Made by a program: the position numbers and the translations under genes
Assembly: GCA_022775005.1 (NCBI GenBank)
Contig: JALFJR010000091.1
Coordinates: 1-52,183 of the forward strand
DNA length: 52,183 bases
Reading direction: 5' to 3'
DNA from: Parabacteroides sp.
GTDB lineage: Bacteria; Bacteroidota; Bacteroidia; Bacteroidales; Tannerellaceae
Shown: positions 548 to 49,066 of the stretch, one piece after another
Layout: every line of letters starts with the position of its first letter
Position numbering within the stretch: position 1 is the stretch's first letter
The notes under the pieces: model-generated
Seen by the model: only the letters and a program-made list of their open reading frames with translations
Databases searched by the model: none
Told to the model about the DNA's origin: nothing

Positions 548-797
548 TTTGCGCGCTCCTTTCTACACCATGTAGTAAACCCGTCGCGGACTTGCGCGCA
601 CCTTTCTACACCGTGTAGTAAACCCGTCGCAGGCTTGCGCGCACCTTTCTACACCGTGTAGTAAACCTGTCGCGGGCTTGCGCGCACCTTTCTACACCGT
701 GTAGTAAACCCGTCGCGGACTTGCGCGGACCTTTCTACACCGTGTAGTAAAGCCGTTGCGGCTTGCGTGGACCTTTCTACACCGTGTAGTAAAGCCA
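548..797. repeat. tandem array A: six units, period 43 (last 42)
   Basis: Units begin at 548, 591, 634, 677, 720 and 762. Each has the form CTTGCGCGCACC, TTTCTACACCGTGTAGTAAA, then about CCCGTCGCGGA. The centre, CTACAC-C-GTGTAG, is a near-perfect dyad with a single central base, conserved in all copies except a C-to-A centre change in the first. The flanking GC-rich part varies more. The period of 43 is not a multiple of three, so the array is not a protein repeat even though short frames cross it. There are no unrelated spacers, so it is not CRISPR. Confidence 0.9.
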
Positions 798-828
798 TCA
801 ACGAATGGCGCAAGCCGATCTTTGAAAC

Positions 829-950
829 GTTGCCCATCGTTTCAAAAAACATTGCCCATCATTTTGGAAAACATTGCCCATCGTTTCAAAAAACGTTGCC
901 CGTAATTTTTCCAGCGGTTGCCCATCGTTTTGAAAAAACATGGGCAACGA
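829..950. repeat. tandem array B: five 22-base units plus an inverted copy
   Basis: Units start exactly every 22 bases at 829, 851, 873, 895 and 917. The consensus is RTTGCCCATCGTTTT followed by about seven bases ending in AAAAC. The next position, 939, carries the motif inverted (ATGGGCAAC at 940-948), so the last direct unit and the inverted copy could fold into a hairpin with a 9-base stem and a 14-base loop. The same unit and period recur in array C at 21925. The array lies downstream of the dcp terminator. Confidence 0.9.
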
Positions 951-956
951 AAATGC

Positions 957-993
957 AAAAAAAGGGCAAACACCGCTCAAACGGCATTTGCCC
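957..993 (-). terminator. rho-independent terminator of the dcp pair
   Basis: Read on the minus strand, GGGCAAATGCCG (993-982), loop TTTGAG (981-976) and CGGTGTTTGCCC (975-964) make a 12-base stem with two adjacent G-U pairs. A run of seven T follows (963-957). It lies about 35 bases after the stop codon of the downstream peptidase gene, as expected for a strong intrinsic terminator. Confidence 0.85.
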
Positions 994-1004
994 CTCTTAT
1001 TTAA

Positions 1005-1024
1005 TAACGCAACAGGTTGCGTTA
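1005..1024. other. perfect 20-base palindrome
   Basis: TAACGCAAC, AG, GTTGCGTTA: two perfect 9-base arms with a two-base centre, 4 bases past the stop codon of the peptidase gene and just before its terminator. It could be a protein-binding site or an extra hairpin in the 3' end of the mRNA. Confidence 0.6.
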
Positions 1025-1028
1025 GGGT

Positions 1029-3188
1029 TTATTTCAAACCACGGTTCTTCAACAACGGATCTGTACCCGGCTCTTTGCCACGGAAGTTTTTGTACATCAC
1101 CATCGCATCGTCGATGCCACCCGGTGTCAAGACATACTGACGGAACTTCTGCGCTACCTCCTGGTTGAAGATGTCGCCAGTCTCCGTATAAGCCTCGTAA
1201 GCGTCGCAATCCAATACCTCAGACCAGATGTAGCTGTAGTAGCCAGCTGTGTAACCACCACCCATCGTGTGGTTGAAGTAGGTCGTACGGTAACGAGAAG
1301 GAATCTGCTTCAACAAACCACGACGACCTAACGTCTCCTGCTCAAAGGCCATCACGTCGAGATTAGCCGGCACTTGGTTGTTCTGATCCACGAACTTGAT
1401 CACCTTCTGATCGCTCGGCTCGCCACTCAAGGCATGGAAGTCCATATCCAAGTAAGAAGCGGCCAAATACTCTACCGTAGCGAAGCCCTGGCCATACTTA
1501 CCGCTCTTATCCAACTTTTCGATCAACTCAGCAGGGATCACCTCACCTGTCTGATAGTGTTTTGCATAGACCTTCAGCACCTCCGGCTCGAACGCCCAGT
1601 GCTCGTTGATCTGTGAAGGCAACTCCACGAAGTCGCGGGGAACGCCAGAAACACCAGAGTAGTGTACATCCTTGAACAGGTTGTGCAAACCATGACCAAA
1701 CTCATGGAACAACGTATTCGCCTCATCTGCGCTCAACAAAGCGGGCTGACCCGGAGAGGGCTGCGTGAAGTTGGTTACGATCGTTACTACCGGTGGCACA
1801 CGCTTTCCATCCTTGTAAGACTGCGGACGGTAAGTGCCACACCATGCACCACCACGCTTGCTGGCACGGGGGAAGAAGTCGAAATAAACCACGCCCAGCA
1901 ACGTGCCATCCTTGTCAGTCACCTCGAAGCACTGTGCCTCCTCGTAGGGCAACGGCATGTCGTTCAACTGCTTGAAGTTGATGCCATAGAGCTTGTTAGC
2001 TACATAGAAGACACCGTCACGCACATTCTCTAACTTCAAGTAGGGACGTACCTCGTTCTCATCCAAGTTGAACTTCGCCTTCTTGGCTTTCTCGAAGTAG
2101 TAGCGCCAATCCCAGCCTTCAGCCTCGAAATTGCCACCCTCTTTCTTGATCTCAGCGTTGATGTCAGCCAACTCCTCCTTTGCCTTGGCCAAAGCCGGCT
2201 TCCAAACCTCATCCAACAGCTTATAGACATTCTCGGAGTTCTTCGCCATGCGATCCTCTAACACGAAAGAGGCATAGTCCTTATAACCCATTAAGTTAGC
2301 CTTCGCCAAACGAGCGGCCACCAAGTCACGAACAACGGCCTTGTTGTCGTTCTCGTTGTCGTGGTTACCGCGGTTGATATAGGCCTCGAAGATCTGCTTA
2401 CGCAACTCACGGTTGTCCGCATACTGCAAGAAAGGCATTACGCTCGGGTTCTGCAACGTGAAGACCCACTTGCCCTCCATGCCTAACTTCTTCGCCGTCT
2501 CAGCCGCCGTAGCGATCAGGTTGTCGGGCAGACCTGACAAATCCTTCTCGTTGTCGATCACCAATTTATAGGCGTTTGTTTCTTTCAACATGTTCTGACC
2601 AAACGTCAACTGAAGCATAGAGATCTTGCTGTTCAGCTCACGCAACTTCGCCTGATCCTCCTCAGAGAGGTTCGCACCACCCCGTACAAAATCCTTGTAA
2701 GTCTCCTCCAAGAGCTTCATCTGCTCCTTGTCGAGACCCAAAGACTCGCGCTTCTCATAAACGGCCTTCACACGAGCGAAGAGCTGCGGGTTCAGGTTGA
2801 TATCATCGCTATACTTAGACAACAGCGGAGACATCTCGCGGCTCAAAGCCTGCATCTCGTCGTTAGAGTTCACACCGTTCTGTCCACCAAACACGATCTG
2901 CACCTTGCGCAGCAAAGCGCCCTGCTTGTCCAACGCAGCGATGGTGTTCTCGAAGTTCGGCTCCTCGGGGTTATTGACAATCGCATCGATCTCCTTGCGA
3001 CCCTCCTCGATACCAGCCAAGATGGCCGGTTTGTAGTGCTCGAACTTGATCTGATCGAAGGGAGGCACACCATACGGAGTGTTATACTCCGTGAAGAAGG
3101 GATTCTCTCCCTCTGCGGCTTTCTTCTCCTGAGAGCCGCAAGCGGTCAGCATCACTGCCAAGCCCGCTGCCATGATTAACTTTTTCAT
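1029..3188 (-). CDS. dcp: M3-family peptidyl-dipeptidase (Dcp-like) lipoprotein, second copy
   Basis: This is a zinc metallopeptidase of the thimet oligopeptidase/Dcp family (M3), which removes C-terminal dipeptides from peptides. The zinc motif HEFGH is at residues 495-499, and the downstream helix carries the third zinc ligand region (FVELPSQINEHW). The length, 719 residues, is normal for Dcp. I start at ATG 3188, because MKKLIMAAGLAVMLTAC is a clean lipoprotein signal with Cys17 as the modified residue; the frame is open 13 codons further upstream but this adds no signal. The protein is probably anchored in the periplasm or outer membrane. It follows its close paralogue by 35 bases and ends at a strong terminator, so the two form one transcription unit, probably the result of a tandem duplication. 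Confidence 0.93.
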   Translation of the reverse strand: MKKLIMAAGLAVMLTACGSQEKKAAEGENPFFTEYNTPYGVPPFDQIKFEHYKPAILAGIEEGRKEIDAIVNNPEEPNFENTIAALDKQGALLRKVQIVFGGQNGVNSNDEMQALSREMSPLLSKYSDDINLNPQLFARVKAVYEKRESLGLDKEQMKLLEETYKDFVRGGANLSEEDQAKLRELNSKISMLQLTFGQNMLKETNAYKLVIDNEKDLSGLPDNLIATAAETAKKLGMEGKWVFTLQNPSVMPFLQYADNRELRKQIFEAYINRGNHDNENDNKAVVRDLVAARLAKANLMGYKDYASFVLEDRMAKNSENVYKLLDEVWKPALAKAKEELADINAEIKKEGGNFEAEGWDWRYYFEKAKKAKFNLDENEVRPYLKLENVRDGVFYVANKLYGINFKQLNDMPLPYEEAQCFEVTDKDGTLLGVVYFDFFPRASKRGGAWCGTYRPQSYKDGKRVPPVVTIVTNFTQPSPGQPALLSADEANTLFHEFGHGLHNLFKDVHYSGVSGVPRDFVELPSQINEHWAFEPEVLKVYAKHYQTGEVIPAELIEKLDKSGKYGQGFATVEYLAASYLDMDFHALSGEPSDQKVIKFVDQNNQVPANLDVMAFEQETLGRRGLLKQIPSRYRTTYFNHTMGGGYTAGYYSYIWSEVLDCDAYEAYTETGDIFNQEVAQKFRQYVLTPGGIDDAMVMYKNFRGKEPGTDPLLKNRGLK

Positions 3189-3223
3189 TCTTTCTTTTTT
3201 AATTATTGATTTACACTCAAGTA

Positions 3224-5341
3224 TCATTTCAAGCCTCTGTTTTTCAACAGCGGGTCAATGCTCGGCTTCTTGCCACGGAAGTTGACATACATATCCATCG
3301 CATCATCGATACCGCCCGGTGTCAAGACATACTGACGGAACTTCTGAGCCACCTCCTGGTTGAAGATGTCGCCCGTCTCTTTGTAGGCCTCAAACGCATC
3401 AGCATCCAGCACCTCTGCCCACATATAACTATAATAACCTGCGGTATAGCCACCCTCCATCGTATGACCGAAGTAGGTCGTGCGGTAGCGCGGCGGAATC
3501 TGGCTGATCAAACCACGGTCGCCCATCATCTTAGCCTCGAACTTCTCGATGTCGAAATCTTGCGGAATCTCTTTCAATACGTGATAGTCCATATCCAACA
3601 AGGAAGCGGCTACATACTCTGTCGTAGCGAAACCTTGGCCATACTTACCTGCCTTGATCATCTTATCTACCAACGCCTGCGGGATCACCTCGCCTGTCTG
3701 GTAATGCTTCGCATACACCTTCAGCACCTCCGGCTCGAACGCCCAGTGCTCATCCACCTGTGAAGGCAACTCTACGAAATCCCGAGGCACATCGGCTACC
3801 CCATAATAATGTACATCCCCAAAGAGGCTGTGCAACGCATGGCCAAACTCATGGAAGACGGTTTCTGTCTCATCAGCTGTCAAGAGCGCCGGTTGTCCCT
3901 CAGCCGGCTTGCTGAAGTTGAAGACAGTCGTCACGATCGGCGGCACACGTTTGCCATCCTTATAGGTCTGTGAGCGATAGCCACCACACCAAGCGCCACC
4001 ACCCTTGCCCGGACGGGTGAAGAAGTCCATATAGAGCACACCCAACGTCGTGCCATCCTTATCCTTGCACTCAAATGCGAACGCATCGGGATCAGGCTTC
4101 GGAATATCCTTGATCTCCGTGAAGGTGATGCCATACAGCTTATTGGCCGTGTAGAAGATGCCCTCACGCACATGGCCCAACTCGAAATAGGGACGCATCT
4201 CATTCTCATCGACGTTATACTTCGCCTTCTTCGCTTTCTCGAAATAGTAGCGCCAGTCCCAACCAGCTGCCTCGAAGTCGCCACCTTCCTTCTTGATCTC
4301 AGCATTGATGTCGGCCAACTCCTCTTTCGCCTTCGCTAAGGCCGGAGTCCACACCTGATCCAACAGGTCATAGACGTTCTTCTCATCTTTCGCCATGTTC
4401 TCCTCCAGCACGAAAGCGGCATAGTCTTTATAGCCCATCAGTTTGGCCTTCTCCAAACGAGCGGCCACCAACTGCTTCACGATCTCTTTGTTGTCGTTGG
4501 CATTGTTGTTATTGCCTCGATGTGTATAAGCCTCGAAGATCTGACGACGCAACTCACGGTTGTCGGCATATTGCAAGAAAGGCATCACGCTCGGGTTGTG
4601 CAAGGTGAAGACCCACTTGCCCTCTAAACCTTTCTCCTTGGCTGTCTCAGCGGCCTTCACCTTCACGTCATCCGACAAGCCGGAAAGATCTGCCTCATTA
4701 TCAATCACCAACTGATAAGCGTTGGTCTCTTTCAGCACGTTCTGGCTGAAGGTCAGCTGCAGCGTAGAGATCTTCGTATTCAGCTCACGCAACTTCGCTT
4801 GATCTGCCTCTGACAGGTTCGCACCACCTCTGGCAAACCCTTTGTAGGTCTCCTCCAGCAACTTCATCTGCTCCTTGTCAAGACCTAATTGCTCTTTCTT
4901 CTCATAGACCGCCTTCACACGGGCAAACAACTTCGGATTCATGCGAATGTCATCCGAGTGCTTGGACAACATGGGATAAAACTCCTGCTCCAACGCCTGA
5001 ATCTCATCGTTGGTGTTCACACTCGACTGACCGCCGAACGCATACATTACTTTCTCCAACAATTGGCCACATTGATCGAGCGCCACAATCGTGTTCTCGA
5101 AAGTTGGCTCTTCGGGATTAGAAACAATCGCCTCAACCTCCTTGACATGCTCTTCCATGCCCTTCAATAACGCAGGTTTATAGTGCGCTACCTCGATCTG
5201 ATCAAAAGGTGGAACGCCAAAAGGTGTGGTGTACTCCGTGAAAAACGGATTGGGTGTAGTCTTGGCTACATCACTTTGCTGTTGAGAGGAACAAGCTCCC
5301 AAAATAACTGCTAAACCGGCAGCCATTAGCATTTTGTTCAT
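3224..5341 (-). CDS. dcp: M3-family peptidyl-dipeptidase (Dcp-like) lipoprotein, first copy
   Basis: This is a paralogue of the next gene with colinear similarity over the whole length, including the zinc motif HEFGH (here 497-501), the FVELPSQVDEHWAFEPEVLK segment and the C-terminal DPLLKNRGLK. The N terminus MNKMLMAAGLAVILGAC is a lipoprotein signal with Cys17. At 705 residues it is full length. The copies differ mainly around residues 590-630, where the downstream gene has an insertion, and in the signal-proximal linker. The role is probably degradation of peptides in the periplasm, feeding amino-acid uptake. A weak -7 element (TATCTTCG on the minus strand at 5383-5376) lies about 35 bases upstream of the start. 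Confidence 0.93.
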   Translation of the reverse strand: MNKMLMAAGLAVILGACSSQQQSDVAKTTPNPFFTEYTTPFGVPPFDQIEVAHYKPALLKGMEEHVKEVEAIVSNPEEPTFENTIVALDQCGQLLEKVMYAFGGQSSVNTNDEIQALEQEFYPMLSKHSDDIRMNPKLFARVKAVYEKKEQLGLDKEQMKLLEETYKGFARGGANLSEADQAKLRELNTKISTLQLTFSQNVLKETNAYQLVIDNEADLSGLSDDVKVKAAETAKEKGLEGKWVFTLHNPSVMPFLQYADNRELRRQIFEAYTHRGNNNNANDNKEIVKQLVAARLEKAKLMGYKDYAAFVLEENMAKDEKNVYDLLDQVWTPALAKAKEELADINAEIKKEGGDFEAAGWDWRYYFEKAKKAKYNVDENEMRPYFELGHVREGIFYTANKLYGITFTEIKDIPKPDPDAFAFECKDKDGTTLGVLYMDFFTRPGKGGGAWCGGYRSQTYKDGKRVPPIVTTVFNFSKPAEGQPALLTADETETVFHEFGHALHSLFGDVHYYGVADVPRDFVELPSQVDEHWAFEPEVLKVYAKHYQTGEVIPQALVDKMIKAGKYGQGFATTEYVAASLLDMDYHVLKEIPQDFDIEKFEAKMMGDRGLISQIPPRYRTTYFGHTMEGGYTAGYYSYMWAEVLDADAFEAYKETGDIFNQEVAQKFRQYVLTPGGIDDAMDMYVNFRGKKPSIDPLLKNRGLK

Positions 5342-5375
5342 AACCTAAATATAAATGTATTTAAAATTCACGGCG

Positions 5376-5456
5376 CGAAGATAAGAAAGTTTTAGGGAAT
5401 CTTTCCTTTCAAATTGTTATTCGCACGCGTTAAAATAAAAATTATCGCTATCTTAG
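5376..5456. promoter_or_regulatory. divergent promoter region, dcp pair and FabK-like gene
   Basis: Two imperfect -7 elements face apart: TATCTTCG on the minus strand (5383-5376) for the peptidases and TATCTTAG on the plus strand (5449-5456) for the flavoprotein gene. Each has one mismatch to TAnnTTTG and neither has a good TTTG at the -33 distance, so this is a weak call. Confidence 0.35.
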
Positions 5457-5486
5457 CGCACCAATTTATCATAAAGAGTTGAAATC

Positions 5487-6425
5487 ATGAACAGAGTATG
5501 TGAGCTTTTCAATATACAATATCCTATTATTCAAGGAGGTATGGTATGGTGTAGCGGTTGGAGATTAGCTGCAGCGGTCAGTAACGCTGGTGGATTAGGT
5601 TTGCTTGGAGCTGGATCTATGCACCCCGAGGTTTTACGTGAGCATATCCGTAAATGTCAGGCAGCTACGCAGAAACCCTTTGGCGTGAACGTGCCGTTGA
5701 TGTATCCAGAGATTGAGACGATCATGCAGATTATCATGGAGGAAGGTGTCAAGATCGTCTTTACCTCAGCGGGTAATCCCAAGACCTGGACCGCCCGTCT
5801 GCAAGCCGCAGGCATCAAGGTGGCTCATGTGGTAAGCAGTGCCAAATTCGCGGCCAAATGCGAGGAGGCAGGTGTGGACGCCATCGTAGCGGAGGGATTT
5901 GAGGCCGGCGGGCATAACGGCCGTGAGGAGACGACCACGCTCTGCCTGATTCCGGCAGTTCGGAAAGCCACCTCGCTTCCTTTGTTGGCTGCAGGTGGTA
6001 TCGCTACGGGCGAAGGACTTTTAGCAGTCATGGCTTTAGGTGCGGAGGGCGCACAGATCGGTACTCGCTTCGCATTAACCCAAGAGAGCTCCGCCCACGA
6101 CAATTTCAAACAGCTTTGTCTTAACCTCAAAGAGGGCGACACCAAACTGCTGTTGAAAAAGCTCTCCCCTACCCGTTTGGTGAAGGGCGATTTCACGACA
6201 GCGGTTGAAGAGGCCGAGGCACGTGGTGCCTCCGCGGAGGAGCTGCGTGAGCTGTTAGGCAAGGGCCGTGCGAAAAAGGGTATTTTCGAAGGTGACCTGC
6301 AAAACGGAGAGTTGGAGATCGGGCAAATCGCCTCCCTCTTCCATGAAGAGCAAAGCGTAACGGAAGTGATGGAAGAGATTGTCCACGCTTTCGAGGCCGC
6401 CAAACAGCGTATGTACACGATTTAA
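5487..6425 (+). CDS. NAD(P)H-dependent flavin protein, FabK / nitronate monooxygenase family
   Basis: This is a 312-residue FMN-binding TIM-barrel protein of the 2-nitropropane dioxygenase family. Visible marks are the N-terminal YPIIQGGM, the SNAGGLGLLGAGS loop, the EGFEAGGHNG motif, LLAAGGIATGEG and GAEGAQIGTRFA, which together form the flavin phosphate site. The EAGGHNG histidine segment occurs in both FabK-type enoyl-ACP reductases and nitronate monooxygenases, so the substrate cannot be set from sequence. Because Bacteroidales often use FabK-like proteins in fatty-acid synthesis I slightly prefer enoyl-ACP reductase, but this is inference. It is the first gene of a run of three on the plus strand, followed after 27 bases by the NUDIX-AlaX gene. 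Confidence 0.88.
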   Translation: MNRVCELFNIQYPIIQGGMVWCSGWRLAAAVSNAGGLGLLGAGSMHPEVLREHIRKCQAATQKPFGVNVPLMYPEIETIMQIIMEEGVKIVFTSAGNPKTWTARLQAAGIKVAHVVSSAKFAAKCEEAGVDAIVAEGFEAGGHNGREETTTLCLIPAVRKATSLPLLAAGGIATGEGLLAVMALGAEGAQIGTRFALTQESSAHDNFKQLCLNLKEGDTKLLLKKLSPTRLVKGDFTTAVEEAEARGASAEELRELLGKGRAKKGIFEGDLQNGELEIGQIASLFHEEQSVTEVMEEIVHAFEAAKQRMYTI

Positions 6426-6449
6426 TTCAAAATTCATAATTCAAAATTC
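6424..6449. repeat. 12-base direct repeat between two genes
   Basis: AATTCAAAATTC occurs at 6424-6435 and again at 6438-6449, overlapping the stop codon of the upstream gene and ending three bases before the next ATG. It replaces any recognisable Shine-Dalgarno for the NUDIX-AlaX gene. Confidence 0.6.
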
Positions 6450-6452
6450 TCA

Positions 6453-7400
6453 ATGGAAGTATTTCCTTTGGTCAACGAGGCGGGTGAGGTCATCGGCAAA
6501 GCCACCCGCCAAGAATGCCATAGTGGCAGCAAACTGCTGCACCCGGTGGTCCACCTCCACATTTTCAATCAGAAGGGCGATCTCTTCCTGCAAAAACGCT
6601 CCATGAGTAAAGACATTCAACCCGGCAAATGGGACACCGCTGTCGGAGGGCATGTCGATTACGGAGAGACCATCGAGGAGGCCCTCCGCAGGGAAGTACG
6701 CGAGGAGCTGGGTGTGACCGATTTCACCCCACAGTTCGTGCAACGCTACGTGTTTGAGTCGGCTATAGAGAAGGAGCTGGTAAACACCTACCGTACATGC
6801 TATGAGGGTCCCTTCTCGCCCGATCCCGCAGAGTTGGACGATGCCCGTTTCTGGACCATCGAAGAGATTAAGGCCAATCTTGGCAAACAATGTTTTACCC
6901 CTAATTTCGAACAAGAGTTCAAACGCTGTTTTGACATGGAATCAGAAGTACAATTAAATGCACATAACAAGGCGGAATATCCGCCTATGCACACCGCAGA
7001 GCATATCTTGAATCAAACAATGGTACGCCTTTTCGGCTGCCCCCGTTCACGCAATGCGCACATTGAGCGTAAGAAATCGAAGTGCGATTATGAATTAAGC
7101 GAGGCTCCTATGCCTGAACAAATGGCAGAGATCGAGCGGAAAGTTAATGAGGTAATCGACCAACACCTGCCCATCACTATTGAATTTATGCGTCGGGAGG
7201 AGGCAGCGGCCATTGTGGATCTCAGCAAACTCCCTGAAGAGGCCAGCGATACGTTGCGCATCGTGCGAGTCGGTGATTATGACGCTTGTGCCTGCATTGG
7301 GGCGCATGTGAATAACACTGCAGAGATTGGTCACTTCAAGTTGTTGACCTACGACTATGCCGACGGACGTTTGCGGTTACGCTTCAAACTGACCGAGTGA
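6453..7400 (+). CDS. fusion of a NUDIX hydrolase and an AlaX-type alanyl-tRNA editing domain
   Basis: The 315-residue protein has two domains in one uninterrupted frame. Residues 1-155 are a NUDIX domain of the isopentenyl-diphosphate isomerase-like group (KATRQECH at 17-24), with a perfect NUDIX box at 66-88 (GHVDYGE...REVREELGV). Residues 170-315 match the C-terminal editing domain shared by AlaRS and free AlaX proteins: the zinc motifs HTAEH (180-184) and CIGAH (281-285), with the family segments KKSKCDYEL and GDYDACACIGAHV. AlaX removes serine or glycine from mischarged tRNA-Ala. The NUDIX substrate is not known. An internal ATG at residue 162 (MESEVQL) could give a free editing domain, but no ribosome site precedes it. 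The next gene overlaps by one base (TGATG), so translation is probably coupled. Confidence 0.88.
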   Translation: MEVFPLVNEAGEVIGKATRQECHSGSKLLHPVVHLHIFNQKGDLFLQKRSMSKDIQPGKWDTAVGGHVDYGETIEEALRREVREELGVTDFTPQFVQRYVFESAIEKELVNTYRTCYEGPFSPDPAELDDARFWTIEEIKANLGKQCFTPNFEQEFKRCFDMESEVQLNAHNKAEYPPMHTAEHILNQTMVRLFGCPRSRNAHIERKKSKCDYELSEAPMPEQMAEIERKVNEVIDQHLPITIEFMRREEAAAIVDLSKLPEEASDTLRIVRVGDYDACACIGAHVNNTAEIGHFKLLTYDYADGRLRLRFKLTE

Positions 7401-8197: not shown

Positions 8198-8214
8198 ACA
8201 ACCAAGCACAAAAA

Positions 8215-8264
8215 AAATGATTTATGGTTTGCGGTAATTGATACCAACAAGCCATAAATCATTT
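8215..8264 (-). terminator. terminator between convergent genes, mainly for dnaJ
   Basis: AAATGATTTATGGTTTG (8215-8231) pairs with CAAGCCATAAATCATTT (8248-8264): 17 bases with one G-U pair and a 16-base loop. On the minus strand the stem is followed by a T run (from the A run at 8210-8217), so it ends dnaJ transcripts; it may also slow transcription from the plus side. Confidence 0.8.
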
Positions 8265-8287
8265 CCTAACTATCCAACAATATCTGC

Positions 8288-11782: not shown

Positions 11783-14251
11783 GTGGTATATCCTACTAAT
11801 TTCGAGCAAAAAACGGGTTTTGATAAAATCCGCCGATTGGTGTCGGAACGTTGTTTAAGTCCTTTGGGCGAGGAGCGAGTAGCCGACATGCAGTTCTGCA
11901 CTCAATTTGAGGACGTTTGCCGCCGATTGGAAGAAACAGACGAGTTCGTGCGCATCCTACATGGAGATCGAGAGTTTCCGGGTAACTTCTTTTTTGATGT
12001 GCGTTATTCCTTAAAACGGATTCGTCCTGAGGGTACTTGGTTGGATGAGCGAGAACTATTTGATCTCAAACGTTCCTTGCAGACCATCAATGACATTGTT
12101 AATTTCCTCAAGCTCGACGAAGAGGGAGAGATTCCCTTCCCTGCCCTGACCGCCTTAGCAGGCAATGTTTTCGTCTTTCCACAGGTTATTAGGCAAATTG
12201 ATGCTATTATTGACAAGTTTGGCAAAGTAAAAGACAGTGCCTCTCCCACCTTGTCACAAATCCGCAGAGAGATCACAATCACGATGAGTGGTATCTCTCG
12301 CAGCCTGCAATCCATCTTGCGAGCGGCGCAAACAGAGGGTGTAGTTGATAAAGACGTAACTCCTACCATGCGCGACGGCCGATTGATGATCCCTGTCGCT
12401 CCCGCTTTCAAGCGAAAAATCAAAGGTATTGTACACGATGAGTCTGCCAGCGGAAAGACGGTATTTATTGAGCCTGAGGTAGTGGTAGAGGCCAATAACC
12501 GCATTCGGGAGCTGGAGGGGGAAGAGCGCAGGGAAATCGTAAAGATATTGACGGAGTTTACTAACGTAATCCGACCGCTTACCCCTGAGATGTTGCTCGC
12601 CTATGAGTTCTTAGCTGATATTGACTTCATCCAGGCGAAAGCTCAGTTTGCGGAACAGATCAAGGCTATCAAACCTATCGTTGAGGATAAACAGCAGGTC
12701 GATTGGGCGGGAGCCGTACATCCGCTACTCTACCTCTCCCTGCAAAAACAGGGTAAATCTGTCGTCCCATTAGACATTGAGCTGACTAAGGAGAAACGGA
12801 TCTTAATCATCTCTGGGCCTAATGCCGGTGGTAAATCGGTTTGTCTAAAAACTGTAGGTTTACTACAATATATGTTGCAGTGTGGCTTGCTGATTCCCTT
12901 ACACGAGCGATCGAGAATGGGTATTTTCGAGCGGCTTTTCATCGACATTGGTGATGAACAAAGCATTGAGAATGATCTCAGTACATATAGTTCCCACCTC
13001 ACACACATGAAGTATTTCGTCAAAAATTGTGACGAACAAACTCTATTGCTTATTGACGAGTTCGGCAGTGGCACGGAGCCACAGATTGGCGGCGCTATCG
13101 CAGAGGCTCTACTCGATCGGTTCAACCGCAACGGTAGTTTTGGCGTAATCACAACGCACTATCAGAACCTCAAGCATTTTGCGGAAGACACACCAGGAAT
13201 TGTGAATGGAGCTATGCTCTACGACCGTCATTTGATGCAGCCTCTTTTTAAACTATCCATTGGTAATCCGGGTAGCTCCTTCGCAGTGGAGATCGCCCGC
13301 AAGATCGGCTTGCCAGAGGAGGTGATCGCTGAGGCTTCTACAAAGGTTGGCACAGACTACATCAATATGGATAAATACCTGCAAGATATTGTGCGCGACA
13401 AACGGTATTGGGAGAGTAAACGGCAGAATATTCGTCAGCGAGAAAAGAAACTGGAAGAAATCGTCGGACGTTATGAGCAGGATCTGACGGATGTGAATAA
13501 ACAGCGGAAAGAAATTATTCGTGAGGCAAAAGCTGAGGCTCAACGAATCCTGCAGGAGGCTAACGCACGTATCGAGAACACAGTGCGTGAAATCAAAGAG
13601 GCCCAAGCAGAGAAAGAGCAAACCAAGTTAGCACGAAAAGCCTTGGAGGATTTTAAGACCTCCGTACAAGAGACCGAGGAAGAAGACAATCGCATCGCAC
13701 GCAAGATGGCAAAGTTGAAAGAGCGTAGCCAGCGGAAGCAACAAAAACAGAAAACAGCTGTTCAACCCATCTTCGATCGCAATACCATCGAAGTGGGTGA
13801 CTCTGTTCGTCTCAAAGGGCAGACCTCCGCTGGAACGGTCATAGAGCTGCAAGGCAAACAAGCCGTCGTGGCTTTCGGTATGCTGAAGAGCACAGTTAAA
13901 GTAGAACAGTTAGAGAAAGTCAGCAAAGGGCAAATCAAAAAGGAGATCCAGAAAAGCACCTTCATTAGTACACAAACGGCTGATGAAATGCACGAGAAGA
14001 GGCTCCATTTCAAGCAGGAGATTGACGTACGAGGTATGCGAGGCGATGAGGCGTTGCAAGCTGTAACCTACTTCATTGACGATGCCATTCAAGTAGGTGC
14101 CAATCAAGTGCGCATCCTGCATGGAACAGGCACTGGCATCCTTCGCCAACTTACCCGGGAGTATTTAGCCAGCGTCCCCGGCGTTCGCCGTTTCCACGAC
14201 GAGCACGTCCAATTCGGAGGCGCAGGCATTACCGTTGTCGAATTAGCCTAA
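11783..14251 (+). CDS. mutS2: endonuclease MutS2
   Basis: A 822-residue MutS2: MutS core and clamp helices, ATPase domain with Walker A SGPNAGGKS (about 344-352) and Walker B LLLIDEFGSG, a long coiled coil (about 520-640, rich in Lys, Glu and Gln), and a C-terminal Smr nuclease domain with DVRGMRGDEA and HGTGTG. It lacks the N-terminal mismatch-recognition domain of MutS. In other bacteria MutS2 suppresses recombination or splits collided ribosomes; which role applies here is open. The start is GTG at 11783, 5 bases after AGGAG, with the usual family N terminus (VYPTNFEQKTGFDKIR). corA follows after 9 bases. Confidence 0.95.
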   Translation: MVYPTNFEQKTGFDKIRRLVSERCLSPLGEERVADMQFCTQFEDVCRRLEETDEFVRILHGDREFPGNFFFDVRYSLKRIRPEGTWLDERELFDLKRSLQTINDIVNFLKLDEEGEIPFPALTALAGNVFVFPQVIRQIDAIIDKFGKVKDSASPTLSQIRREITITMSGISRSLQSILRAAQTEGVVDKDVTPTMRDGRLMIPVAPAFKRKIKGIVHDESASGKTVFIEPEVVVEANNRIRELEGEERREIVKILTEFTNVIRPLTPEMLLAYEFLADIDFIQAKAQFAEQIKAIKPIVEDKQQVDWAGAVHPLLYLSLQKQGKSVVPLDIELTKEKRILIISGPNAGGKSVCLKTVGLLQYMLQCGLLIPLHERSRMGIFERLFIDIGDEQSIENDLSTYSSHLTHMKYFVKNCDEQTLLLIDEFGSGTEPQIGGAIAEALLDRFNRNGSFGVITTHYQNLKHFAEDTPGIVNGAMLYDRHLMQPLFKLSIGNPGSSFAVEIARKIGLPEEVIAEASTKVGTDYINMDKYLQDIVRDKRYWESKRQNIRQREKKLEEIVGRYEQDLTDVNKQRKEIIREAKAEAQRILQEANARIENTVREIKEAQAEKEQTKLARKALEDFKTSVQETEEEDNRIARKMAKLKERSQRKQQKQKTAVQPIFDRNTIEVGDSVRLKGQTSAGTVIELQGKQAVVAFGMLKSTVKVEQLEKVSKGQIKKEIQKSTFISTQTADEMHEKRLHFKQEIDVRGMRGDEALQAVTYFIDDAIQVGANQVRILHGTGTGILRQLTREYLASVPGVRRFHDEHVQFGGAGITVVELA

Positions 14252-21817: not shown

Positions 21818-21924
21818 CGTATTTATTCTGGATATATAATCGGCTATCCGATTAAAATGCATTCCCATCGTACAAATACAAAAACAGCTCCAAGATTCGC
21901 CAGCCAAACAATGGCAGACAAATC

Positions 21925-22056
21925 ATTGCCCATCGTTTTCTAAAACGTTGCCCGTCGTTTCAGAAAACATTGCCCATCGTTTTTCAAAACATTGCCCATG
22001 ATTTTTCAATGCGTTGCCCGTAATTTTTCAATGCGTTGCCCATCAAAACCGCTGCG
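21925..22056. repeat. tandem array C: six 22-base units, same family as array B
   Basis: Units start exactly every 22 bases at 21925, 21947, 21969, 21991, 22013 and 22035. The consensus is RTTGCCCRTCGTTTT followed by about seven bases ending in AAAAC or ATGC. The first three units make an inner dyad across the unit border (CGTTTT-CT-AAAACG). The last unit is degraded in its second half. All units have the same orientation as array B. The array fills the middle of the 471-base region between the divergent nuclease and clpB genes, about 110 bases upstream of the clpB promoter. Confidence 0.9.
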
Positions 22057-28165: not shown

Positions 28166-31100
28166 CTACTTGGCCACCACATTACGGCTTAATAACTTGC
28201 GAGCCTCTTCCTCGGTCAAGCCTCGACGAGCGGCATAATCTCGCAGCTGCTCCTCGTCAATGGTACCAATCATAAAATAGTGTGCTGCCGGATGCGCAAA
28301 GTATAGTCCGCTAACTGTGGCAGTCGGATACATCGCTCCGTTCTCCGTCAACCGCACACCGATACGCTGCATGTCCAACAGCTTGTCCAAGGTCTCATTG
28401 AGCCGCTGGTCAGGCAAAGAGGGATAGCCAATCGCAGGACGAATGCCTTGATATTTCACCTTATAGAGATCCGCTACGGAGAGTTGCTCCTGAGGCGCAT
28501 AGCCCCAGCACTCCTTGCGCACTCGCTCATGCAAATACTCTGCCAATGCCTCCGCCAAACGATCACTCAACGTCTGCAACAGCATCGCGTTATAGGTATC
28601 TCCTTCCGCTTGGTATTGCTCCATCCATTGTTCCAAACCGATACCTGCCGTCACGACAAAGGCTCCCAAATAGTCTGTCCGATGCTCCTCAGCCGGCATC
28701 ACAAAGTCTGCCAGACTCTTATAAACCGTCTCGGGACGTTTCACCTGCTGCCTTAACGTAGGCAAGAGGTAATCGCCGATATGGATCGTATCTCCCTCAC
28801 TATGGGCTGGGAAGAAACCATAGATTGCTTTGCAACAAGCCATCTTTTCTGCCACCAACCGCGCTAACAGGCGAGTCGCATCCTTGTAGAGCTGCATCGC
28901 CTCAGCCGCTTTCGCCCGTTCCTTCTCGGGGAATCCAGCTAACCACATCGCCCGACAGGAATCACAACCATGAATCTGCGCAATTTCCGCGTAACGTCCC
29001 GTCAGTTTCCAAGCACTAAAGAAGAAGGTCCAATGAATGTAAGGGATCAACTCCTCCACCGGCACAACAGGCAGCTCATGGACACCCAGCTGATTAGGCA
29101 CGACGGGCGTATAGGCATTCCAATCGATAGCTACCGGATGTTGACGAGCCTCTGTCAATGAAACTAACTCCTCTTGCTTCTGCCCCATCGACACACGCAA
29201 AGCCTCCTGCTCTTGCGTCAACTCTGCCACATAGGCATCGTGCGTAGCAGGATTCAACAGCTTGGCCGCGATCAATGGATTCTGAGAGGCATCCAGCACA
29301 TGAATTACCGGGAAATCGTAATGCGGAGCGATCTTCACCGCGGTGTGCAGTTTGGAAGTAGTTGCACCTCCTACCATCAAAGGTATGGTTAATCCCGCCT
29401 TTTGCATCTCCTCCGCTACGTGCGCCATCTCCTCCAACGAGGGGGTAATCAAACCAGAGAGACAAACCAAATCAGGTTTCTCCTCGATCGCCTTCTGCAC
29501 AATCACCTCCGCAGGAACCATCACGCCCAGATCGATCACCTCATAGTTATTGCAAGCCAACACAATAGAGACTATGTTCTTACCGATGTCGTGCACATCA
29601 CCTTTCACCGTGGCGAAGAGTACCTTTCCCGCCTTTGCCGAACCGGAAGCCTTTTTCTCCGCCTCGATAGCCGGCTGCAAGATAGCCACCGCTTTCTTCA
29701 TCGTGCGGGCAGTCTTCACCACCTGCGGCAAGAACATCTTCCCTGCACCGAACAGGTTGCCTACCTTATTCATACCGCTCATCAAGGGGCCGTCAATAAT
29801 CTCCACCGCATGGGCGTACTGTGTCAAAGCCTCCTGTAAGTCAGCCTCTAAATAATCTCCTATACCTTTAATCAAGGCATACTCCAAACGCTCGTTCAAC
29901 GAGCCTTCTCGCCACGCCTCTTGATGTTTCTCTGTCTGCTCGCCTGCCGCCTCAGCATGCAACTGCTGCGCATAAGCGATCAACTCTTCCGCTGCCTCTG
30001 GACGACGATAGAGAATCACATCCTCCAAGAGCGTGCGGAATGCCGGTTCTATCTCCTCATACAATACCGAAGTGGAGGGATTAACAATACCCATATCCAT
30101 TCCCTTGGCAATGGCGTGATAGAGGAAAACAGCGTGCATCGCCTCACGCACTCGATTATTACCCCGGAAAGAGAAGGAAAGGTTACTTACACCACCACTC
30201 ACCTTCGCACCGGGAAGGTTCCGCTTGATCCATTCCACCGCACGGATGAAGGCCAAGCCATAGCCATTATGCTCCTCCATACCGGTAGAGATCGCCAAGA
30301 TATTGGGATCGAAAATAATATCCTGCGGGTTGAAACCAACCTTTTGCGTCAGCAGGTCATACGCTCGTTTGCAGATCTCAATCTTCCGTTCAAAGGTATC
30401 TGCCTGCCCCTGCTCATCAAAAGCCATAACAACCGTAGCAGCACCCAATTGCTTGATGCGTGCCGCATGGCGCAAGAACAGCTCCTCACCCTCTTTCAGC
30501 GAGATGGAATTGACAATGCTCTTGCCCTGTACACACATTAGACCCTGCTCAATCACCTCCCATTTAGAGGAGTCGATCATGACCGGTACCCGAGCAATAT
30601 CCGGCTCAGCCGCAATCAAATTCAGGAAATGGGTCATCTCCTTCACCGCATCCAACATGCCATCATCCATATTGATGTCGAGCACCTGTGCTCCATCCTC
30701 CACCTGCTTCCGAGCGATGGTCAGTGCCTCTTCGTAGTTGCCCTCCTTGATCAAACGCAAGAACTTACGTGAACCTGCTACGTTGCAACGCTCACCCACA
30801 TTCACGAAGTTATTCTCTGGCTTCACCTCCAACAGTTCCAATCCAGAGAGCCAGAGGCAATCAGGCTTCGGTGCCGGTTGATGCGGCCGTTTGCCACGCA
30901 CTAAATCAGGGAACTTAGCGATATGTGCCGGAGTCGTACCACAACAGCCACCCAACACATTCACCAAACCCTCCTCCACGAAGGGGCGCACATGCTCCAA
31001 CATTGTCTCAGGGGTCTCGTCGTAATCGCCAAACGTATTAGGTAAACCCGCATTGGGATAGGCACTGATGAAACAGGGAGCCAAACGAGCCAACTCCGCT

Positions 31101-37058: not shown

Positions 37059-37068
37059 CTTTATATAT

Positions 37069-38589: not shown

Positions 38590-38609
38590 CTTCCTTGCTG
38601 TTTGAGCCG

Positions 38610-38617
38610 CAAAGATA
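38610..38617 (-). promoter_or_regulatory. -7 element of the dnaB run
   Basis: TATCTTTG on the minus strand (38617-38610), an exact TAnnTTTG, 20 bases ahead of ATG. Possible TTG elements lie at 14 and 23 bases, neither at the ideal spacing. Confidence 0.5.
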
Positions 38618-38873
38618 GTGCAAACTGAGCGCAAAAGCATCAAACGTGTTTGGATGTTTTGCCGAGGTGCAGCCTATCTTCGCCGTTTTTGTGGCAAAAA
38701 TACAAAAAGGTTTCACTTTCGCCAAGGATAGCCCACCTTTCTAAAGGAGGAGACGTCACAGACGATCACGATGCAATCAGCGGACGATACCGATGAAATT
38801 CCTTGCGCCATGCGGCTCCTTTCAGTGCGCCATGCGAGGAAAAAGCCTAAGAAGCCCGATAAATTTTCCGTTC

Positions 38874-38957
38874 GCCTCAGCCGAATGGACATTCAGCTCA
38901 GCGGAACGTACATCCGGCACAGTGGAACGGACATTCCACACTGCTGAACGAAGATTT
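38874..38957. repeat. tandem array E: four 21-base units
   Basis: Units at 38874, 38895, 38916 and 38937, each of the form GCNCAGYGGAACGGACATTC plus one base, with decay in the last. Downstream the phrase TTCCCATAGCAA occurs twice, 44 bases apart (near 38959 and 39003). The array lies in the 560-base region between divergent dnaB and the DUF4249 gene; the remainder of that region, 38618-38873 and 39020-39100, shows nothing else I can name. Confidence 0.75.
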
Positions 38958-40984: not shown

Positions 40985-40997
40985 GGAGACTGAAAAG

Positions 40998-43748: not shown

Positions 43749-43762
43749 TGGAGCTATTGATC

Positions 43763-45421: not shown

Positions 45422-47031
45422 AATCCTAACTCCACCACACAAGTAGTCAGTGAGCGGGGAGCGATGGAGAGCGAACGTGAAGCCCCATCGAGGATCTCCA
45501 CCAAGGAGAGATCGGTACGCTCGTCCGTGCGATAAAGGGAAATCTTTCGCACCTGTTTCTGCATAGCCTTGGGCAGGGATAGTTGCACCTCCTCCCGCTC
45601 AAAACCGGTATTGACAAAGACCATAACCAACTGCTTGCCATCGGGCGAGCGATAGGCGGAGCCACAGAGCGTAGCCAACTCCTCTGCTCCCTCCAACGCT
45701 ACTCGTTGATACCCTGGACGAATAAAACGACTATAATTACCCAAGGCCCAAAGCAATTTGTTAGGTGTGGCATGACCGCCCATCAACAGGTTGCCCTCCT
45801 TGGCTTGGAGCGAGATCAGGGCATGGTTGCCATTCAGCTCCATCGCTTTCCAATAGCCCCAAGCCTCCGCTCCTGAGCGCACAATGTCGACATAGATCAA
45901 TCGACCCATCAGCAGCGCCACCTGCATATCCGTATGCGTACCGGCCTGCCAATCCGACGTGAACCCATCGAACCGCCGAATTTGCTCCTGGCCATAGGGC
46001 AACAGGCACCATTCAGTTTGATAATAGCGCACATCGTAGTGCGCACAAGTATCTTTCACAGGCCGACGAGTCTCCTCAATCTCTTGATTTGTCGTATGAT
46101 TATGATAGGTATGCGCACCGATCAGCCGGGGGACATGCTTCAAGTCGCCCACGTAATGGGGCGATCGGGAATCAAAAAAGGCTTGAATCACTCGATGCGG
46201 GGTCTCCACATCCCCTTTGAACTGACGGCTCACCCCCTCATCTTCCCGATAGAGCACAGGGATCGAGGCCGCCTCTCCTACCAAGATTTGCACGCTATCT
46301 AACGAAGCACGCTGCTGCATCGCCGCATCCAAAGCGGCATACATCCGCTTCATCTCGCTCAGTCGCCAAGAGCTACCCTCTTGCGCTGGGCGTGCCCAAT
46401 CCACCTGCGGCTCATTGATGGGACTGATATAACGAATAGGAAAACCCTGCTGCAAATAGTGGGCAGCTACCTCAGCCAAATAGTCGCCATACAGCGCATA
46501 GCCCTCCGGACGGATATTAGCCCGATCCTTATGATCCGCATAGCCCTTTCCATTGGCGGTCCACTGCACCAACGGCGAGTTAGAGAAGAGCAGGAAGCCG
46601 TTGCAGCCCATCGCTTTCGCCTGCTCCATGAAATAACGTTGCCCGGCACATTTGCCCCAATCATAGTGCTGACCGTCGATTGTCTTGAACGATTCCACCC
46701 GTCGCTGAAGCGGGTAGATGTCGCAATCGGCCTGTTCCCAAGTGCCCGCTCCGGTATTCACTCGCCACAGTGAGAGGCCAATCCCTTTCGGGTGCCCTGC
46801 CGCATCCAACTCTTGACTAAACAGCCATTCCGCGATTTGTTTGCGCTCCGGTTCCGACCAATAGCGCCCAACCAACGCTCCACTCCACGCATCCGATGCC
46901 GTGAAATGATCCATCGTTTGAAACACCTGTGTGGGATCCACCTTCACCACACGATCAGCCGCCGACAGCATGCCCGCACTCAAGCAGGCGCACAGCATGA
47001 ATGCCACTCGTCTCATAGTCCTCATAAACAT
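45418..47031 (-). CDS. GH30-family glycoside hydrolase
   Basis: An exported 537-residue (beta/alpha)8 hydrolase with a side beta domain. The signal peptide ends near Ala24. The acid/base Glu207 is in YISPINEPQVDW and the nucleophile Glu340 in YYQTEWCLLPYG, both at the GH30 positions. The C-terminal 100 residues are beta-rich (RVALEGAEELATLCGSAYRS). The family includes beta-1,6-galactanases, beta-1,6-glucanases and xylanases; I lean to a galactanase-like type but cannot fix it. ATG codons at 47031 and 47025 are both possible. It starts two bases after the HxlR regulator and is surely cotranscribed with it. The last four bases overlap the convergent MG2 gene. Confidence 0.88.
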   Translation of the reverse strand: MFMRTMRRVAFMLCACLSAGMLSAADRVVKVDPTQVFQTMDHFTASDAWSGALVGRYWSEPERKQIAEWLFSQELDAAGHPKGIGLSLWRVNTGAGTWEQADCDIYPLQRRVESFKTIDGQHYDWGKCAGQRYFMEQAKAMGCNGFLLFSNSPLVQWTANGKGYADHKDRANIRPEGYALYGDYLAEVAAHYLQQGFPIRYISPINEPQVDWARPAQEGSSWRLSEMKRMYAALDAAMQQRASLDSVQILVGEAASIPVLYREDEGVSRQFKGDVETPHRVIQAFFDSRSPHYVGDLKHVPRLIGAHTYHNHTTNQEIEETRRPVKDTCAHYDVRYYQTEWCLLPYGQEQIRRFDGFTSDWQAGTHTDMQVALLMGRLIYVDIVRSGAEAWGYWKAMELNGNHALISLQAKEGNLLMGGHATPNKLLWALGNYSRFIRPGYQRVALEGAEELATLCGSAYRSPDGKQLVMVFVNTGFEREEVQLSLPKAMQKQVRKISLYRTDERTDLSLVEILDGASRSLSIAPRSLTTCVVELGF

Positions 47032-47033
47032 GA

Positions 47034-47405
47034 TTATACACTTTGTTCATATTGTTCCCGATGGCTGATGATCGTGGGCATGTGGCGCAGAGCCCAGTTG
47101 GTGAGCTCCTGGATAATAGGCATTAAGGAAAATCCCATCTCCGTCAGCTCATACTCGACACGAGGCGGCACCTCTGGATAAACAGTCCGCTTCACCAATC
47201 CGTCAGCCTCCAAAACCTGCAACGTGCTCGAAAGCACCTTCGACGAAATGTCGGGAATAAATTTCCGCAGCTGGTTGAAACGCAAACATCCCTCTTCCTT
47301 CAAAATCAATAGGATCAACAGTGCCCACTTGTTTCCAAAGCGGGCAATGACATTCCGAATCGGGCATAACTCTATATTCAAAAATTTATCTTCTATTCTT
47401 GCCAT
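47034..47405 (-). CDS. HxlR-family transcriptional regulator
   Basis: A 123-residue winged-helix regulator. The N-terminal ELCPIRNVIARFGNKWALLI carries the Cys14 conserved in this family, which in YodB, HypR and QorR senses quinones or electrophiles. The recognition part reads LRFNQLRKFIPDISSKVLSS and the wing VPPRVEYELTEMG. It binds as a dimer. A promoter at 47530-47560 drives it, with a leader of about 118 bases. Its own divergent neighbour and the GH30 gene are the obvious targets, by position. Confidence 0.92.
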   Translation of the reverse strand: MARIEDKFLNIELCPIRNVIARFGNKWALLILLILKEEGCLRFNQLRKFIPDISSKVLSSTLQVLEADGLVKRTVYPEVPPRVEYELTEMGFSLMPIIQELTNWALRHMPTIISHREQYEQSV

Positions 47406-47529
47406 AGTAAATGTCTTATTATGAATAAAAGTGAGTTTTAGGTAACCTACTTACCTTTCTGTAACTTCTTGTTTATTAACAATATTCTTCACATCTTCGC
47501 AGTGTCGGGAAAGAAAAGGTTATCCGACA

Positions 47530-47560
47530 CAAAGGTAATTCAACAAATTCATTAAACAAA
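47530..47560 (-). promoter_or_regulatory. promoter of the HxlR-GH30 unit
   Basis: On the minus strand TTTG (47560-47557) is followed by 19 bases and TACCTTTG (47537-47530), a full match to the Bacteroidetes consensus. The -33 element lies only nine bases from the ATG of the divergent gene at 47569, so the two leaders overlap. A weaker plus-strand pair (TTG 47469, CATCTTCG 47492) may serve the divergent gene. Confidence 0.65.
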
Positions 47561-47568
47561 CAGAACAG

Positions 47569-48789
47569 ATGAAAAAGCGTATGCAAGCACTCCGAATCTG
47601 GATACTCCTTTGGCTGACTCTTTCAGCCTTGCAAGCCCAAACCGCCTCCTACCAAGTGTATGGCGAAGGAAAAACAATCTTGTTGTTAACCGAAGATGAC
47701 TCGAAAACAGGTATCGAACTTATCAGCAAACTAACCGAGCATTCCTTTCAAGTCATTGTGCCCGACATCCATGCCTACAAAGAAGCTTTACCACAAAAAG
47801 ACTCGTTGAGCGACGACCAACTCGCTATGCAGCTGATGACCACAGCCACCCGCCTCTCCCGGAAGCCGATCGCCGTAGTGGGATGCGGAGCGCATACGGC
47901 TATGGCCTGTCGCATCGCACAACTCTATCCTGCACAGGTGGATAGAATCGTAACCTTTGGCGAGAAAATAAACACACCACTGCCCTGCCCCATCCGGCAA
48001 GTGTCGGAAGGAAAGCAAGCATGGAAAGCGATCAAGCCCTTCCTGGAAGCGGATTTGAAGACGCTGCTCGCTGAGGGAAAGCCGCAGGATATGAAGCGGA
48101 AACGTATCTTGTTCGACCTGTCGCATAGCCAATGCACGGATACTTATAAGGGATATGAGACCTATCCCTACCTCCTCCCCGCTTACGAGCGAATGCTGCA
48201 GGAATTAGATTATCCCGCTGAATTAGTCATCCATGAGCAGGGCGAACTCACAGAAGAACTGTTAGCTGAAGCGGATGTGGTTTTGATGCTCTCGCCACTT
48301 AACAAAGGACTGCAAAAGAACCTAACGGAGGAGGAACGTAAAAACTTGGTACGCTACGTAGCAGAAGGAGGCTCCCTACTCTTCTTTATCGATGACGCAC
48401 ACCGGGTGGATTGGCAAGCCTATGGAGCCGCCGATGTAGTCGGGCCTTACGGCATCTCGTTCGGGGCAGATGTTCCACTGCCGGGCAATGTAGGAGCAAT
48501 CGCCTTCCCGAATCGCATTTTCAAGGAGCGTTACGAGATTCCTTATAGTGGCGCCTGTCTGATGCGTGGCGGTGAGCCGGTCAGTGTCTGTATGGAAGGA
48601 GGCTATCTGCACGGAACCATCGTGGAATTGGCGAATGGCGGTAAACTATATGCCGGTGGAGACACGATGGTTGGCCTTCTCTTAGGCTATGTCGATGGCG
48701 AACGCCTCAACTTTGACAAAATGGCCACTCGCTGGTGGGGCAAGGATTCCTGGAACTACATGAAAACATTGCTGAACTGGGCACTCTAA
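47569..48789 (+). CDS. secreted two-domain protein, hydrolase-like and DUF4350/GATase-like parts
   Basis: A 406-residue exported protein; the signal peptide ends near ALQAQ (residue 24). Residues 28-160 have the order of an alpha/beta-hydrolase core, including a putative nucleophile turn AVVGCGAHTAMACRIAQLYP, where Cys stands in the place of the usual Ser, so activity is doubtful or cysteine-based. Residues 180-406 look like a class I glutamine-amidotransferase-like fold of the DUF4350/IFT52 kind (RILFDLSHSQC, ELLAEADVVLMLSPLN, LVRYVAEGGSLLFFIDDAH, ending YAGGDTMVG). No clear relatives by name. It is divergent from the HxlR-GH30 unit and may be under HxlR control. A long repeat array follows the stop. 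Confidence 0.72.
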   Translation: MKKRMQALRIWILLWLTLSALQAQTASYQVYGEGKTILLLTEDDSKTGIELISKLTEHSFQVIVPDIHAYKEALPQKDSLSDDQLAMQLMTTATRLSRKPIAVVGCGAHTAMACRIAQLYPAQVDRIVTFGEKINTPLPCPIRQVSEGKQAWKAIKPFLEADLKTLLAEGKPQDMKRKRILFDLSHSQCTDTYKGYETYPYLLPAYERMLQELDYPAELVIHEQGELTEELLAEADVVLMLSPLNKGLQKNLTEEERKNLVRYVAEGGSLLFFIDDAHRVDWQAYGAADVVGPYGISFGADVPLPGNVGAIAFPNRIFKERYEIPYSGACLMRGGEPVSVCMEGGYLHGTIVELANGGKLYAGGDTMVGLLLGYVDGERLNFDKMATRWWGKDSWNYMKTLLNWAL

Positions 48790-48836
48790 ATGTACGGGGC
48801 ATAAAAGCAGTCTGTTCCTACAAGCCGAAATCCACG

Positions 48837-49066
48837 CTTACTAAAAGCATGGATTGATCCTTACTAAGACTATGTGTGTACTCTTACTAAAACAGAGAGT
48901 GCACTCTTACTAAGACTGAGGGTCAGTCCTTACTAAGCGTGAGGGTCATCTCTTACTAAGACAGGGGGTGCACTCTTACTAAGACAGGGAGTCCGTCCTT
49001 ACTAAGACCGAGGGTGCACTCTTGCTAAGACAAAAGGTGCACCCTTACTAAGAACGTTTTCAAGGG
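48837..49066. repeat. tandem array D: ten 23-base units
   Basis: Units begin exactly every 23 bases from 48837 to 49044. The first half is nearly invariant, CTTACTAAGAC (one copy has CTTGCTAAGAC). The second half varies but mostly fits GRGGGTGCACT or GGGTCAGTC. There are no spacers, so it is not CRISPR, and 23 is not a multiple of three. It fills the whole gap between two convergent genes, and the last unit runs over the stop codon of the metallo-beta-lactamase-fold gene (49060-49062). No separate terminator is seen, so the array may do that work. Confidence 0.92.

Follow-up and report, generated by a model that had tools for sequence, protein, structure and literature searches.

What keeps the period of a tandem array constant while its sequence varies? 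A 52,183-nt stretch of Parabacteroides sp. (contig JALFJR010000091.1, assembly GCA_022775005.1; hereafter the window) raises this question, as a first-pass annotation had noticed in it five intergenic arrays of degenerate direct repeats, with periods of 43, 22, 22, 21 and 23 bases, and had suggested that spacing on the helix is what is selected. We propose that these arrays, together with the families to which they belong, are dispersed non-coding rows of putative protein-binding sites, whose spacing and motif are held by selection and which spread as non-autonomous repeats, a reading to which we give about an even chance of being right.

Two period classes of intergenic arrays

All five arrays were recovered by Tandem Repeats Finder (TRF) and none overlapped a called gene, confirming both that they are real and that they are intergenic:

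549..793 (TRF), + strand: 43-bp array, period 43, 5.7 copies; a GC-rich half plus a CTACACCGTGTAG dyad
824..953, + strand: FAM22 element of six units (+++++-); TRF 825-941, period 22/44
21920..22049, + strand: FAM22 element of six units (++++++); TRF 21919-22044, period 22
38869..38952, + strand: FAM21 element; TRF 38876-38936, period 21; four units, each a 19-bp dyad plus 2 bp (CGTTC...GAACG-NN), read by eye
48837..49066, + strand: FAM23 element; TRF 48860-49053, period 23, 8.4 copies

In shuffled non-coding DNA (dinucleotide shuffles, 10 repeats) TRF returned 5 rows in 682 kb and 8 rows in 706 kb at any period of at least 10; given this near absence, the arrays are not products of chance. 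The two 22-base arrays had been noted to share a consensus, and both proved to be members of one dispersed family, FAM22. The description of the periods as strictly kept held in general but was slightly too strong for the 43-bp array, which contains one 42-bp step. Similarly, the division of each unit into a conserved and a variable half applied to the 23-, 22- and 21-bp families but not to the 43-bp units, which are alike over their full length (93% matches).

Arrays were called by TRF, genes were masked with a codon-model caller of our own, and arrays lying mostly within a called gene were excluded. The survey covered 645 kb of the genome itself (G000; 3.14 Mb, a 97.86% complete assembly in which the window is contig C58), 674 kb of 17 other Parabacteroides and 645 kb of 18 genomes from other families of the order. 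The genomes used for ortholog comparison were G028, which carries the same genus label, and G034. Stretches of the genus and order samples lay at fixed positions set beforehand (3 of 20 and 2 of 20, respectively, were all N and were dropped), and those of G000 and G028 were partly picked for their FAM22 content, so array densities are biased. FAM22 rows of G000 (15 by our count) were taken out ahead of the period count.

The remaining intergenic arrays of the genome with periods of 18-60 (n=23) fell almost entirely into two classes: 10 had periods of 21-23 and 10 of 40-43, the rest being 20, 20 and 24. Outside the window, 17 of 20 arrays of this sample belonged to these classes. The other Parabacteroides gave a similar picture (n=36; 25 at 21-23, 6 at 40-43 and 5 elsewhere, i.e., 31/36 in the classes), and the other families of the order (n=9 arrays) yielded six at 21-23, none at 40-43 and three at 20. 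No such array was found in 100 kb of Escherichia coli K-12. For the own and genus samples together, the share within the two classes was 50/59, 49/52 and 34/36 at TRF score limits of 40, 60 and 80, respectively. The peaks foreseen for a histogram of intergenic periods, at 21-23 and 42-44, were thus borne out at 21-23 and 40-43 in the own and Parabacteroides samples, with almost nothing between. Unit sequences, judged by eye, were mostly unrelated-looking between families. Just beyond the 21-23 class is an array at 13601-13704 of locus L113, with a period of 24 bp and about five units that resemble palindromes (GCCGCATC...ACGCGGT).

Motif, distance and unit number within the families

The FAM22 unit reads AAAAC-RTTGCC[C/G][A/G]T-N-GTTTT-NN. 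At up to one mismatch, its 15-base pattern occurs 49 times each in G028 and the own genome, 26 times in G034 and 0 to 3 times in every one of the remaining 56 relatives; the two-unit pattern was absent from all 79 other genomes of the phylum that were searched. Six units is the usual number, found at 21 of the 31 own-genome loci examined (five units at 4, seven at 2, at most four at 4; four more loci lie beyond these 31). Inverted units stay in the 22-bp register, the core being flipped in place, and the array is bounded by inward-facing units at 23 of the 27 loci having at least five units. Within clusters of at least three cores (clusters of one or two were left out, and G034 was represented by eight loci from named records), all 249 core intervals were multiples of 22 (G000 121, G028 93, G034 35), many of them orthologous or copied and hence not independent. 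The first window element has cores at 830, 852, 874, 896 and 918 and an inverted core at 940, and is identical to its G028 ortholog at 133 of 134 positions, without gaps; the second sits between clpB and a divergent BFN-domain gene.

Many FAM22 elements occupy the same place in G028 and G034. Of the loci compared, 9 of 12 (against G028) and 2 of 3 (against G034) had kept both their unit number and their register. In a unit comparison that was gapless by method (75 units in 12 comparisons, 10 with G028 and 2 with G034), whole-array identity was 82-99% in 11 comparisons and 74% in L083/L125. Substitutions between orthologs were unevenly distributed, affecting 12/375 positions of the TTGCC core (3%), 78/750 of the arms and 31/150 of the linker (21%; core versus linker, p 7e-10). 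As read from these alignments, the FAM22 orthologs present the pattern of a constrained motif within a drifting unit of fixed length. In 12 G028 pairs (duplicates removed by hand), the arrays as a whole changed less than their flanks (165/1519 versus 262/1694, p 1.4e-4); gaps in these pairs numbered 6 within arrays and 17 in flanks, which is not enough of a difference to stand by itself. The suggestion that spacing is under selection finds support in the orthologous loci: at most of those compared, the interior of the array keeps its length while linkers change freely. At L017/L130, L076/L120, L011/L033 and L026/L123, homology between relatives ends at the array edge, as if the borders were rearrangement points.

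FAM21 and FAM23 are dispersed families as well. FAM21 consists of 19-bp dyads joined by 2-bp linkers: eleven copies in three genomes, some of them mutually orthologous, have three linker dyads in 8 cases and four in 3, and all 25 steps measure 21. Past dnaB, homology between the window and G028 ends within a few bases of the first FAM21 dyad, and G028 has different DNA from there. The FAM23 window element has ten CTTACTAAG motifs (at up to one mismatch) at an exact 23-bp step, separated by 14-bp variable spacers, and across seven copies with at least three motifs, 46 of 46 intervals were 23 or a multiple of it. Compared with its G028 ortholog, to which it aligns 236 bp to 236 bp, 2/90 motif positions and 19/140 of the rest had changed (p 0.004), while in G034 the array is ~70 bp shorter.

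Among the longer arrays, several of 41-43 bp apparently have a GC-rich half in common, as judged by eye. The 43-bp array of the window, which contains a near-palindrome at 557-752, has relatives at contigs C37 and C68 and weak matches at C47, C16 and C6; its motif count is six in G000 but seven in G028. Another locus of this kind, L098 of G000, corresponds to L130 of G028 within 2.5 kb that are 96% identical, array included, and the repeat number is equal. Nevertheless, the second half is swapped in three of the four G000 units, and the step is 41 instead of 42. Since a unit like the swapped one is present at L111, conversion between copies is the simplest account of this swap.

Rows of putative binding sites and the alternatives

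The observations that call for an explanation are thus the period classes, the rigid pitch, the usual unit number of FAM21 and FAM22, the conserved positions, the motif constraint, the dispersal and, in addition, palindromes at the level of DNA. A gapless scan of 205 kb of non-coding DNA, to which G000 and G028 each contributed, detected 91 long near-palindromes, against zero when every spacer was shuffled once, and palindromic symmetry reached p<0.05 in 7/23 own and 12/33 genus consensus units. Several arrays in other Parabacteroides are composed of about four palindromic units folding into one long hairpin. G-U versus A-C mismatches in 72 palindromes numbered 78/60 and 88/84 between tandem genes (+ and -, respectively), 79/80 between convergent and 49/64 between divergent genes, with no clear gene-direction bias. 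Mismatches within elements were more coherent than binomial (p 0.005), as expected since repeated units share mismatches. Of 66 arrays, 55 could be classified by gene context (11 could not), and their tandem/divergent/convergent placement of 29/15/11 follows the background of 135/69/42, lending no support to the transcription barrier that had been considered. We take the symmetry to be a property of the DNA, as it comes without RNA-type wobble or gene-orientation bias.

In the reading as rows of protein-binding sites, each unit would carry a short, often dyad-symmetric motif, with neighbours about two helical turns (21-23 bp) apart; in a palindromic 41-43-bp unit the two dyad centres are separated by half a period, which again gives a spacing of ~21 bp. 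A dimeric DNA-binding protein, probably different or fast-evolving in each family, may bind neighbouring sites cooperatively. Purifying selection would then keep the motif and the inter-motif distance, and the remaining unit would drift or be swapped by conversion between copies. The elements presumably spread as non-autonomous repeats with inverted ends, and in the cell they might serve as a nucleoid or partition-like scaffold, or as sites for a mobile element's own protein. That the motif is constrained, the distance rigid and the dyads symmetric, irrespective of the direction of transcription, fits rows of dimeric-protein sites about two turns apart.

The trait that is held is the distance between neighbours and not the phase along the array. 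Strict helical phasing found no support: 23-bp steps lose phase over nine units, nine such steps shifting by ~18 bp relative to 21-bp steps.

Several observations weigh against the binding-site reading. With 23-bp steps, which do not correspond to an integral number of B-DNA turns, ten units would not lie on one face of the helix, and the ratio of the class means (~22 and ~41.5) is not an exact 1:2. Palindromic symmetry failed to reach p<0.05 in the majority of consensus units (16/23 in the own, 21/33 in the genus and 8/9 in the order sample). Coding arrays, though few, share some of the periods (3/7 own and 6/9 genus arrays in the two classes). Nor is the pitch without exceptions: two FAM22 remnants with only two cores (L027 and L082) have a 21-bp step, units were lost at L021/L115 (58 bp) and L083/L046, a 15-bp gap occurs at L010/L206, and the first unit differs in L083/L125. 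MAFFT alignments placed some 1-bp gaps in the array span as we had delimited it, after the last core, at L017/L031, L026/L123, L028/L035 and L083/L125, as well as three within L098/L130 and one within L091/L127. Taken by itself, FAM22 shows a modest excess between convergent genes (8/27 versus 18/106 background spacers; tandem/divergent/convergent 12/7/8 versus 59/29/18). Finally, neither the intervals of a single dispersed family nor orthologs scored in more than one genome count as independent observations.

Could the arrays instead be plain mobile repeats, similar to miniature inverted-repeat transposable elements (MITEs) or repetitive extragenic palindromic (REP) sequences, without host function, the period reflecting family history and the inverted ends serving a transposase? 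Such an account, which we consider rather unlikely though deserving of serious weight, draws on the dispersal of FAM22, FAM21, FAM23 and the 43-bp family, on the mostly inverted outermost FAM22 units, which resemble terminal repeats, on the palindromes that span whole arrays, and on the precedent of the BrickBuilt repeats, as portrayed in parts of PMC4596501. Yet it predicts neither that unrelated-looking families share the same two period classes nor that motif and linker are differently constrained at orthologous sites. Moreover, in the own-genome match list no two FAM22 clusters flank a transposase-sized gap, as an autonomous parent would, and the 97.86% complete own assembly has no match to PF01797, the Y1 transposase of the REP-associated tyrosine transposase (RAYT) type, other transposase families not having been searched. 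The RAYT/REP reading in particular was rejected for want of a Y1 match.

Replication slippage, producing ordinary minisatellites under a mutational bias towards sizes near 21 and 42 bp, seems improbable to us. It would readily explain the six motifs of the 43-bp array in G000 versus seven in G028, the conversion-like replacement within L098, the shortened FAM23 array of G034 and the units lost at two FAM22 loci, but fits poorly with the usual unit numbers (three linker dyads in 8/11 and four in 3/11 FAM21 copies; six units at 21/31 FAM22 loci), with a FAM22 number and register unchanged at 9/12 (G028) and 2/3 (G034) loci, and with inverted units in register and motif constraint. That the arrays act as RNA elements, i.e., bidirectional terminators or mRNA-protecting hairpins, we judge very improbable. 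The clearest single-hairpin arrays of other Parabacteroides do have folding z scores of about -6 to -15, in many FAM22 copies the last + unit can pair with the last - unit into a hairpin that has T's behind it, and the mild FAM22 excess between convergent genes points the same way. The window arrays, however, fold weakly (z -1.6 to -4.7), no Rfam family matched the window at gathering thresholds, and neither the mismatch types nor the background-like placement of the 55 classified arrays shows a clear bias with gene direction; on these grounds an RNA hairpin or terminator was rejected as the main explanation. Clustered regularly interspaced short palindromic repeats (CRISPR) were discarded because the unit listings have no repeat-spacer structure.

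Returning to rows of binding sites, unrelated-looking families in different Parabacteroides have the same two step lengths, which makes length, not sequence, their common trait. This leads us to a wider and more tentative proposal, against which the balance of probability tips somewhat: that the genus has chromosomal 'ruler arrays', comprising many sequence-unrelated families of dyad sites that would conserve the inter-site distance (about two helical turns), and often the site number, while recognition sequences turn over between species, and that these would be scaffolds for cooperative DNA-binding proteins. Sequence is the customary basis for classifying intergenic repeats of bacteria, whereas here the step length is the shared trait; it points to a common physical constraint and offers an easy search signature for Bacteroidales. 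In searches of one open-access library we found no earlier description of such arrays.

Known repeat systems and neighbouring features

The first-pass annotation had pointed to intergenic repeats of similar length in Porphyromonas gingivalis, and the parallel was right in kind: the available parts of PMC4596501 describe 23-nt BrickBuilt repeats, the 41-nt MITE464/PgRS and 22-nt arrays in strain W83. According to the same parts (PMC4596501), BrickBuilt and PgRS resemble the Parabacteroides arrays in being dispersed, intergenic, spacer-free tandem repeats with a conserved and a variable half and long predicted stem-loops; the window arrays are likewise intergenic and spacer-free, the shorter ones with periods near 23. 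Unlike them, BrickBuilt elements have leader and tail segments with IS5-like ends, and their repeat number ranges from 1 to 22.8, in contrast to the usual numbers of FAM21 and FAM22 (PMC4596501, in the portions available). The likeness is one of period and layout, not of unit sequences, as BrickBuilt units are given in figures only (PMC4596501, same portions). The BrickBuilt terminal repeat GAGACCTTTGCA was not found near the window arrays; its one match in the window, with 2 mismatches, lies far off at 30389 (chance mean 5.27), and membership of BrickBuilt was therefore rejected. Still, the occurrence of these period classes in Parabacteroides as well suggests a pattern of wider reach than PMC4596501, in the parts available, could show, of which the 22-, 23- and 41-nt arrays of P. 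gingivalis may form part.

REP sequences and bacterial interspersed mosaic elements, as presented in sections of PMC3733652, are, like these arrays, short dispersed extragenic palindromes that are often mutually inverted. The arrays described here differ from them in having no overall bias to gene 3' ends and a rigid pitch in multi-unit arrays.

R6K iterons have a repeat length of 22 bp. In plasmid iterons, shifting two sites by half a helical turn abolishes their cooperative binding (PMC4980987, in part), and sopC/parS of the F plasmid is made up of twelve tandemly repeated 43-bp units with ten inverted repeats of 16 bp (PMC6238139, in part). The cooperativity of iterons and the dyad rows of sopC make such rows of sites a known way of working. 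The 43-bp array shares with sopC, as outlined in those parts of PMC6238139, 43-bp direct repeats that each bear a dyad, a feature also seen in other arrays, of whose consensus units only some are significantly palindromic. Unlike sopC, however, the Parabacteroides arrays are chromosomal and dispersed, and the 43-bp array had no match in the plasmid collection; unlike plasmid iterons, FAM22 is not confined to one origin but occupies dozens of chromosomal sites over the contigs. As the arrays are dispersed and their protein sites putative, we do not claim membership of the sopC or iteron class. A plasmid or phage source was also rejected, since, at the sensitivity used, neither plasmids nor phages yielded a match to FAM22, and plasmids yielded none to the 43-bp array.

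Other features of the window were noted in passing. Between the first 22-bp array and the stop codon of an M3 peptidase, a terminator-like inverted repeat (AGGGCAAA...TTTGCCCCT) was seen by eye at 965-996. Two neighbouring M3-family peptidases (Dcp-like) occupy 1029-5341 on the minus strand; the first also matches the G028 site of the second copy, at ~72% DNA identity, and the pair is apparently a tandem duplicate. A short AT-rich 14-bp tandem (TAATTCAAAATTCA) lies at 6423-6449, and further 14-bp arrays resembling it are found in G028 and elsewhere in the own genome. At and just upstream of the dnaB start, 38609-38713 holds another dispersed element of ~100 bp, with 13 partial copies in G028 and G034 together by our count.

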